A stretch of DNA of 64,000 nucleotides from NCBI RefSeq assembly GCF_000007305.1, contig NC_003413.1, positions 1,724,141 to 1,788,140 on the forward strand, written 5' to 3'. A model generated the notes under the pieces. It had not been told where the DNA came from. It saw only the letters and a program-made list of their open reading frames with translations, and searched no databases. Both the position numbers and the translations under genes were made by a program. The stretch is from Pyrococcus furiosus DSM 3638. Its GTDB lineage: Archaea > Methanobacteriota_B > Thermococci > Thermococcales > Thermococcaceae. Shown here one piece after another: positions 3,371 to 5,448 of this stretch; the first letter of the stretch is position 1; every line of letters begins with the position of its first letter.

Positions 3371-4039
3371 ATGAAAGATTCTATGTTCTTGTATGAATTT
3401 GATCTATTTCGATACTCGAAGGATCTCACAGCATTGTCCTTTTTACTGCTCATAGGCTCCTCTCTTACAGTGCACTGGGTTTCTTTATCAATGAGTTCTT
3501 CTAGGGATCTCCTACATTATCTTGTTCTTCCCCTAATACTTGTTGTAATCCTCCACGAAGGCCTTCATGCCCTCACAGCAAAACTTAGCGGAGCCAAGAC
3601 CAGCTTAGGAGTATTAACTAAATATGGGATCATTTTAGCCGTTTATGTTGGCATTAACACTCCTCTTCCAGTTAAAAAAATAAGATACATCACTATAGCT
3701 CCAATTATTATATCCATTGTGGCGTTCTTCTTTTCCTGGGTTACATATTCTCCCTTCTGGGCCATATTGTACATTTTCAATACCACTGGAATAGTTGGTG
3801 ATCTGATAGTCTTCCTAGTTCTTTCAAAGATGCCCTCCGATGCCATTGTTGTAGATGAGGGGACTATTATGAAGTCAAATGCAGAATTTCCAGAACCTTA
3901 TCCATCTTGGTTCTCTAAGCTTATCATTGGGCTTGCAGTATTGGTATTCCTCTATATTCTCACAAACATTAGAATCGAATTTGAAGTTGTGGGTACTCTT
4001 CCTAATCAGACAATGCCAGTAAATAGTCACTTTGAGTGA
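3371..4039 (+). CDS. DUF3267-like predicted membrane metalloprotease
   Basis: A 222-residue integral membrane protein with about five hydrophobic helices (roughly 20-40, 48-65, 85-100, 105-150, 180-200). The sequence HEGLHALTAKLSG near residues 60-72 is an HExxH zinc-binding motif of the kind found in the DUF3267 putative zincins and site-2-type intramembrane peptidases. No second metal-binding motif is obvious. It stands alone, between divergent rpl35ae and downstream gap. The last codons overlap a TGM-like element proposed for gap. The peptidase activity is inferred from the motif only; substrate unknown. Confidence 0.6.
   Translation: MKDSMFLYEFDLFRYSKDLTALSFLLLIGSSLTVHWVSLSMSSSRDLLHYLVLPLILVVILHEGLHALTAKLSGAKTSLGVLTKYGIILAVYVGINTPLPVKKIRYITIAPIIISIVAFFFSWVTYSPFWAILYIFNTTGIVGDLIVFLVLSKMPSDAIVVDEGTIMKSNAEFPEPYPSWFSKLIIGLAVLVFLYILTNIRIEFEVVGTLPNQTMPVNSHFE
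4027..4039 (+). promoter_or_regulatory. TGM-like (TrmBL1-type) site upstream of gap
   Basis: An inverted repeat TCAC-N5-GTGA with the same spacing as the Thermococcales glycolytic motif TATCAC-N5-GTGATA; the outer positions match imperfectly. It lies upstream of the AT-rich promoter boxes (TTAAAAT at 4049-4055 and TTTATAAT at 4061-4068) and overlaps the stop codon of the preceding gene. A site upstream of BRE/TATA is the arrangement expected for TrmBL1 activation of gluconeogenic genes. The match is partial, so binding is an inference. Confidence 0.45.
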
Positions 4040-4087: not shown

Positions 4088-5092
4088 GTGAAAATAAAGG
4101 TCGGAATTAATGGATATGGGACAATTGGAAAGAGGGTAGCCTACGCCGTAACTAAGCAAGATGACATGGAGCTCATAGGAGTTACAAAAACTAAGCCTGA
4201 TTTTGAAGCTTACAGAGCAAAAGAACTTGGAATCCCAGTATACGCCGCAAGTGAGGAATTCCTTCCAAGATTTGAAAAAGCTGGATTTGAGGTTGAAGGA
4301 ACACTCAATGACTTGTTGGAAAAGGTAGACATAATTGTAGATGCAACTCCCGGAGGAATGGGAGAGAAAAATAAGCAACTCTATGAGAAGGCGGGAGTTA
4401 AGGCTATTTTCCAAGGGGGAGAAAAAGCTGAAGTTGCTCAAGTTTCTTTTGTAGCTCAAGCAAACTATGAAGCTGCCCTTGGAAAAGATTACGTGAGGGT
4501 TGTCTCTTGTAACACTACAGGGTTAGTGAGAACTCTCAATGCAATAAAAGATTACGTTGATTACGTATATGCCGTAATGATTAGGAGAGCTGCCGATCCA
4601 AACGACATTAAGAGAGGACCAATAAACGCTATAAAACCGAGCGTAACAATTCCTTCCCACCATGGACCAGATGTGCAAACTGTAATCCCAATAAACATAG
4701 AAACTTCTGCATTTGTAGTCCCAACAACAATTATGCATGTTCACTCAATAATGGTAGAGCTTAAGAAACCCTTAACCAGGGAAGATGTTATTGACATTTT
4801 CGAGAACACAACGAGAGTACTCCTTTTTGAAAAGGAGAAGGGATTCGAGAGCACTGCTCAGCTAATAGAATTCGCTAGGGATTTGCACAGAGAATGGAAC
4901 AATCTTTATGAGATTGCAGTGTGGAAAGAAAGCATAAATGTAAAGGGCAATAGACTCTTCTACATACAGGCAGTTCATCAAGAGAGTGATGTAATTCCCG
5001 AAAATATAGATGCAATAAGGGCAATGTTTGAAATTGCCGAGAAGTGGGAAAGCATAAAGAAGACAAACAAGAGTCTCGGCATACTTAAATAA
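4088..5092 (+). CDS. gap: Phosphorylating glyceraldehyde-3-phosphate dehydrogenase
   Basis: Archaeal class II GAPDH, 334 residues, interconverting glyceraldehyde-3-phosphate and 1,3-bisphosphoglycerate. In Pyrococcus glycolysis uses ferredoxin-dependent GAPOR instead, so this enzyme serves gluconeogenesis. The Rossmann motif [13 protein letters not shown] is at the N-terminus and the catalytic Cys is in VVSCNTTGL near residue 141. The start is GTG at 4088, preceded by GGTGAGG at 4077-4083. A TGM-like element sits upstream. The next gene, 56 bases downstream on the same strand, encodes a small encapsulin-like protein, a pairing described for family 4 encapsulins. Confidence 0.96.
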
Positions 5093-5148
5093 CTTTTTCC
5101 CAACAAATTTTTTAAGCTTTGAATGCTATGTTAGTATGCGTGTGAGAC

Positions 5149-5448
5149 ATGGAGAACAACAACATAATGTCCCAAGTCAAGGAAATTATTGAAGCTGCAA
5201 TAAAGGAATTAGAAGATGACGGATTTGAGCCAGATATAATCTTAGCTGGCCCTATCTTTATAAGATATCTACCCGAAGATGTCAGACTGAAAGTTTATGA
5301 AATTGAGGAACTAGGAAGTGATGCAATTATAGCAGATTCTAAGTATCTCGGCCAAATTAAGAAAGCAGCCAAAAGAATATCAATTGATCCTCTTCTCCAA
5401 GAAAAAGAATGGGAAAAGATAATTGAAGAGATACCTACTCAAGAATAG
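5149..5448 (+). CDS. HK97 A-domain protein, family 4 encapsulin-like
   Basis: A 99-residue protein that I read as the stand-alone A-domain of the HK97 fold: a helical N-terminus (about 8-24), then alternating strands and helices with [44 protein letters not shown] near residues 35-85. Such truncated encapsulins (family 4) are described from hyperthermophilic archaea next to genes for sugar-phosphate or redox enzymes, GAPDH among them, which are proposed cargo or partners. Here gap lies 56 bases upstream on the same strand. ATG 5149 follows GTGAG at about 5141-5145 and an AT-rich box near 5107-5120, so it may also have its own promoter. Fold assignment is by recognition, not by search; whether it assembles or binds GAPDH cannot be seen. 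Confidence 0.72.

Follow-up and report, generated by a model that had tools for sequence, protein, structure and literature searches.

A Family 4B A-domain encapsulin-like gene behind gap in Pyrococcus furiosus, and its deoC-linked relatives in the Thermococcaceae

The window, by which we mean the whole stretch of DNA analysed here (64,000 nucleotides from Pyrococcus furiosus DSM 3638), carries a glyceraldehyde-3-phosphate dehydrogenase (GAPDH) gene followed by a small gene on the same strand, which we call the 4B gene, and by a transporter gene on the other strand, which we call the ECF gene:

4088 to 5092, plus strand: gap, archaeal type II (phosphorylating) glyceraldehyde-3-phosphate dehydrogenase; GTG start, 334 aa
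5093 to 5148, plus strand: 56-bp spacer with an A/T-rich stretch, a possible TATA element for the 4B gene without statistical support in the window
5149 to 5448, plus strand: Family 4B A-domain encapsulin-like protein, 99 aa; ATG start; PF08967, NF041191
5435 to 6040, minus strand: ECF-type transporter S component, convergent with the 4B gene; PF07155, E 1.7e-32

The spacer measures 56 bp because the last base of the gap stop codon is 5092, and the 3' end of the ECF gene runs 14 bp into the 4B gene. The gap product scores 627.9 bits against TIGR01546 (cut-off 232.9) and 528.7 bits against NF003251, also matches PF02800 (E 1.7e-33) and has a PDB relative in 2czc (E 1.5e-207); its DNA is closest, at 80% identity, to that of G015, one of the genomes called gap-type below, in which gap is the gene upstream of 4B. 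In keeping with its origin, the window encodes an L35Ae protein that is identical, over 87 of 87 residues, to chain Bc of the P. furiosus entry 4v6u. Directly upstream of gap in the window lies an ORF for a DUF3267 putative zincin peptidase (3371 to 4039); the ORF lists of the eight gap-type loci, L147 to L154, hold nothing comparable upstream of gap.

A sequence-only reading of this locus had placed a 99-residue product at 5149, on the same strand and 56 bases past gap, and the coordinates agree. It had further taken this product for a truncated, family 4 encapsulin-like protein, which is borne out by a family in print and by scores above both cut-offs: 128.4 bits (E 1.1e-37, cut-off 31.4) against PF08967, “Putative type 4B encapsulin shell protein”, and 124.2 bits (cut-off 90) against NF041191, “family 4B encapsulin nanocompartment shell protein” (encap_f4b). 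PF08967 is the only Pfam match of the protein at E up to 1, its core covering residues 4 to 81 and leaving a C-terminal tail. These scores, together with an ORF kept open as 4B in 83 relatives from 83 genomes, make the 99-aa ORF more than a chance reading frame. A strict encapsulin would have the complete HK97 fold, E-loop and P-domain included, and be able to close a shell; here we found 99 residues and no match to PF04454. Family 4B genes are also expected to follow a gene for GAPDH or DeoC, and this is what we see, both in the window, behind gap, and among the relatives (8 gap-type, 75 deoC-type).

Family 4, the A-domain encapsulins, was defined by Andreas and Giessen in 2021 (PMC8346489), whose main text places the GAPDH and DeoC operon types, treated as separate, within Family 4B only, names glyceraldehyde-3-phosphate as the substrate common to both enzymes, and cites a proteomics study for a stable complex of GAPDH with the A-domain protein in P. 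furiosus. The association of truncated encapsulins with GAPDH in hyperthermophilic archaea, also put forward by the sequence-only reading, is thus in print as the Family 4B GAPDH operon type. Since family, operon type and complex all figure in that paper, the gap-4B pair of the window is an already known system. The same main text calls the function of A-domain encapsulins speculative, and nowhere in it is there a mention of ECF, transporter, riboflavin or convergent genes. In the open-access literature, titles revealed no subsequent experimental work on family 4, the matches to PF1875 looking unrelated; the available text of a Thermococcus kodakarensis interactome paper contains neither encapsulin, DUF1884, GAPDH nor deoxyribose, and names glyceraldehyde for another enzyme only. 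A 2024 review states that families 3 and 4 still await experimental characterisation, a statement hard to square with the complex for which PMC8346489 cites proteomics.

As to the fold, a single-sequence AlphaFold2 model was poor (pLDDT 60.5), and with it Foldseek found no PDB match at E up to 0.001, the best being 2pk8 at E 1.1, and no HK97 capsid among the best 50 of 153 matches. By sequence, 2pk8 is related to the 4B protein with E 3.4e-9 in phmmer and 1.9e-30 by profile, and it is the single plausible relative in the profile search of the PDB. That search also returned pentatricopeptide-repeat chains, namely PPR10 at E 0.008 and designed proteins with E values as low as 5.8e-10 but no stretch that passes alone; we rejected them as chance or repeat matches. 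An hhalign comparison of PF08967-type proteins with family 1 encapsulins gave a probability of 0.1%, no better than the gap, deoC and ECF controls, with an alignment that fell on the N-terminal part, off the shell domain; it is a weak comparison because both alignments hold little sequence diversity (Neff 2.7 for 117 distinct PF08967-type proteins, of which 77 remained after filtering, and Neff 1.6 for the 10 family 1 proteins). The A-domain-like fold attributed to the 4B protein rests on 2PK8 and on the comparison in the main text of PMC8346489.

We then surveyed 94 Thermococcaceae genomes. PF08967 has a match in 92 of them (91 above the cut-off), and these same 92 account for all its occurrences among 115 genomes of the wider phylum; gap has a match in 89 of the 94. 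Searching the window protein directly against genome contigs gave no 4B relatives, and the loci were therefore gathered through gap and genome searches; 49 loci gathered through gap had no 4B gene by phmmer or profile. We mapped a 4B copy in 83 genomes, that is, 84 loci with the window. The gene upstream of it is gap in eight genomes (G013 to G020, whose gene content we take to be of the Pyrococcus type) and deoC in 75, or 9 against 75 with the window included. Read from the other side, 88 gap loci (87 genomes plus the window, six with less than 600 bp downstream, and leaving out the partial gap matches of G061 and G088) contain a 4B gene within the fetched downstream stretch in eight cases, G013 to G019 and the window; the G020 copy lies beyond that stretch. 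The spacer between gap and 4B measures 48 to 70 bp in eight of the nine loci and 1488 bp in G020. Between the two genes of G020 there is a tryptophan/tyrosine permease-type gene on the other strand (L154, 3442 to 4545). With start codons called mechanically, deoC overlaps 4B in 74 of the 75 deoC-type loci, and the overlap is exactly 4 bp in 34 of them.

A conserved linkage to gap throughout the Thermococcales, which the sequence-only reading had proposed to check, did not hold up: it is confined to those 8 of 83 genomes, one lineage by the ECF tree described below, the other 75 having deoC instead. The earlier interpretation is thus upheld in part, for the family assignment and the association with GAPDH. 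With gap linkage restricted to one lineage and deoC upstream elsewhere, GAPDH looks like a derived partner of the 4B protein rather than the defining one.

The constant neighbour lies on the other side. A convergent ECF S-component gene adjoins 4B on the opposite strand in all 84 mapped loci, in both enzyme contexts, with 3' ends that range from an overlap of 21 bp to a distance of 18 bp and overlap by exactly 4 bp in 63 of the 84. In quick trees that carry long-branch warnings, the ECF proteins of the nine gap-type loci group together (SH-aLRT 100), and so do the gap-type 4B proteins (SH-aLRT 76, 97 columns); these groupings and the invariable ECF gene point to one gene pair found in two enzyme contexts. 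The gap DNA tree, from an alignment in which base composition differs among many rows, sets G020 apart from the other linked genomes, and a tree constrained to keep the nine in one clade is worse by 46.2 log-likelihood units (p-AU 0.063). The ECF tree supports a single origin of the gap-4B arrangement, the gap tree not placing G020 with the rest. Just beyond the ECF gene, thiL (thiamine-phosphate kinase) is found in the window and in all eight gap-type genomes; in G032 and G011 it lies a long way from 4B and the ECF gene.

The gap-type genomes differ in what they lack. PF01791 matches only once per genome in these eight, and at least twice in 81 of the 86 others (three have one match, two have none). 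The one such sole match that we tested, a 227-aa piece in G013, resembles a class I fructose-bisphosphate aldolase at 411.5 bits, short of the 430 that this model requires; it scores above the threshold of the wider subfamily NF005556 (276.6 bits, threshold 241), and the models listed for it include none for deoC. A true deoC protein used as query had no match in any of the eight genomes. By these two queries, deoC is absent from all eight gap-type genomes. The class-III aminotransferase flanking the deoC-type cluster is 97% identical in G032 and 81% in G011; its best match in the eight gap-type genomes reaches 59 to 60% only. From its spread, we infer that deoC-4B is the older arrangement. 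One further genome, G005, is Pyrococcus-like at gap and, where one of its contigs ends, matches deoC over 21 residues (L294, 4060 to 4153), which is either binning contamination or an exception.

No 4B locus was mapped in 11 of the 94 genomes. Four of these are G005, G006, G054 and G060; in the other seven, deoC adjoins the ECF gene without an intact 4B gene. We found no 4B gene between the two in G008, G080, G083, G085, G090 and G092, and in G088 there is a 38-residue remnant ORF, probably a decaying 4B copy, that overlaps the end of deoC by 4 bp (L234, 2105 to 2221). Five of the seven are present in the gap DNA tree and need five changes there, many forks being open. The missing gene is likely a loss in these genomes, in which case 4B seems dispensable.

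Has GAPDH adapted to its small neighbour? The 80 full-length GAPDHs (9 linked, 71 unlinked) all have 334 aa and closely similar C-termini, and linked and unlinked proteins are consistently distinct at position 147 only (Val against Thr, Ser or Ile). Cargo of a strict encapsulin carries a dedicated targeting peptide; no such peptide particular to linked genomes appears in these 80 proteins, a comparison that one common to all 80 would escape. The 4B protein does differ: its C-terminal tail is extended and shows [LI]P behind a conserved Trp in 9/9 gap-type and 0/75 deoC-type copies, a descriptive count, as the pattern was written after viewing the alignment and the gap-linked copies form one lineage. 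As for a promoter of its own, the best TATA-like match in the window spacer is equalled by 794 of 1000 shuffles; G015 has a full TATA match (43 of 1000 shuffles as good), G017 a match of 7 of 8 letters (325 of 1000), and for the remaining six of the eight intergenic regions the best match was equalled 779 to 995 times in 1000 shuffles.

The reading we favour, to which we give about an even chance, takes the 4B protein for an accessory subunit, small and structural, whose client changed from DeoC to GAPDH. It would bind the product of the gene immediately before it, and perhaps stabilise or cluster that enzyme, with no closed shell around it; the DeoC aldolase would be its partner in most of the Thermococcaceae examined, and in the Pyrococcus lineage, where deoC is missing and the 4B-ECF pair stands behind gap, GAPDH would have become the partner in one change, presumably in that direction. 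The small size and the sole Pfam match speak for such a subunit, and a functional link is argued for by the substrate that both upstream enzymes use and by the P. furiosus complex reported through PMC8346489. One has to keep in mind that the constant ECF linkage, the apparent dispensability of 4B and the unchanged GAPDH call for caution, as do the gap-4B spacers, so unlike the overlapping deoC-4B genes, the position of G020 in the gap tree, and an HK97 relation recovered neither by Foldseek nor by profile comparison. A stronger version, in which 4B would be a portable accessory subunit for glyceraldehyde-3-phosphate enzymes that on loss of deoC swapped its client to GAPDH and gained its C-terminal tail, we regard as possible but rather doubtful.

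Several of these cautions are what one would expect if the gap neighbourhood were incidental, 4B simply travelling with the ECF gene, from which its overlapping 3' end makes it hard to separate, until a chance rearrangement landed the pair behind gap. The pair persists across both enzyme contexts, deoC and ECF stay adjacent in the seven genomes without an intact 4B gene, GAPDH bears no sign of adaptation, and the gap-4B spacers are real gaps, with a permease gene intervening in G020. Chance would nevertheless have had to pick two alternative enzymes sharing a substrate, and it leaves unaccounted for the stable complex cited in PMC8346489, the deoC-4B overlap in nearly all loci (as called mechanically) and the tail peculiar to gap-linked copies, albeit a pattern chosen afterwards; we therefore hold this account to be unlikely, though a serious contender. 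The constant ECF gene, and thiL just past it in the window and all gap-type genomes, could also mean that 4B is a small ligand-binding or regulatory protein tied to a compound imported through the ECF transporter, its enzyme contacts being secondary. Convergent genes are, however, not expected on one transcript, thiL is distant from the pair in G032 and G011, and we identified no ligand site in the 4B protein, so that this strikes us as improbable. Slightly more improbable still is that 4B proteins form pentamers or a small closed shell enclosing or sequestering the enzyme, as proposed for encapsulins generally: the main text of PMC8346489 builds its shell hypothesis on 2PK8, which resembles the A-domain located at the five-fold axis, but about 100 residues with no full-length shell domain, a 2PK8 crystal that is a dimer (its authors suspecting the tag, according to that text) and a GAPDH without a candidate targeting peptide between linked and unlinked genomes all tell against it.

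If the stronger, portable-subunit version is true, nature has run a partner swap on a virus-derived fold in these genomes, which may teach how A-domain encapsulins recognise enzymes. Material for direct tests is at hand in related 4B proteins with two natural partner enzymes and in genomes that keep deoC without 4B, and the lineage-specific 4B tail may mark the enzyme binding site. By the same comparison, “GAPDH cargo” is one lineage's feature, the transporter gene being the constant neighbour of 4B.

Among known systems, the closest is the Family 4B GAPDH operon type in the main text of PMC8346489, which agrees with the window gene in its Pfam and NCBIfam family, in its length of about 100 aa and in lying directly past gap; it is the window system itself. 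Unlike in that account, the GAPDH and DeoC types look here like one gene lineage whose upstream enzyme was exchanged and whose ECF neighbour stayed. The Family 4A protein PF0899 (2PK8) is related to 4B, with 32% identity in the Foldseek alignment, and differs from it in its neighbours, hydrogenase or OsmC genes according to the same text, and, over the ten 4A rows of our alignment A1, in a longer inter-helix loop and in the lack of the C-terminal Trp-containing tail of 4B. Family 1 encapsulins (PF04454), for which the main text of PMC8346489 claims a common HK97 ancestry with 4B, are full-length shell proteins, unlike the 99-aa 4B protein, with no profile similarity detectable in what was a weak test; they occur in 10 of the 94 Thermococcaceae genomes (L235 to L244), against 92 for PF08967.
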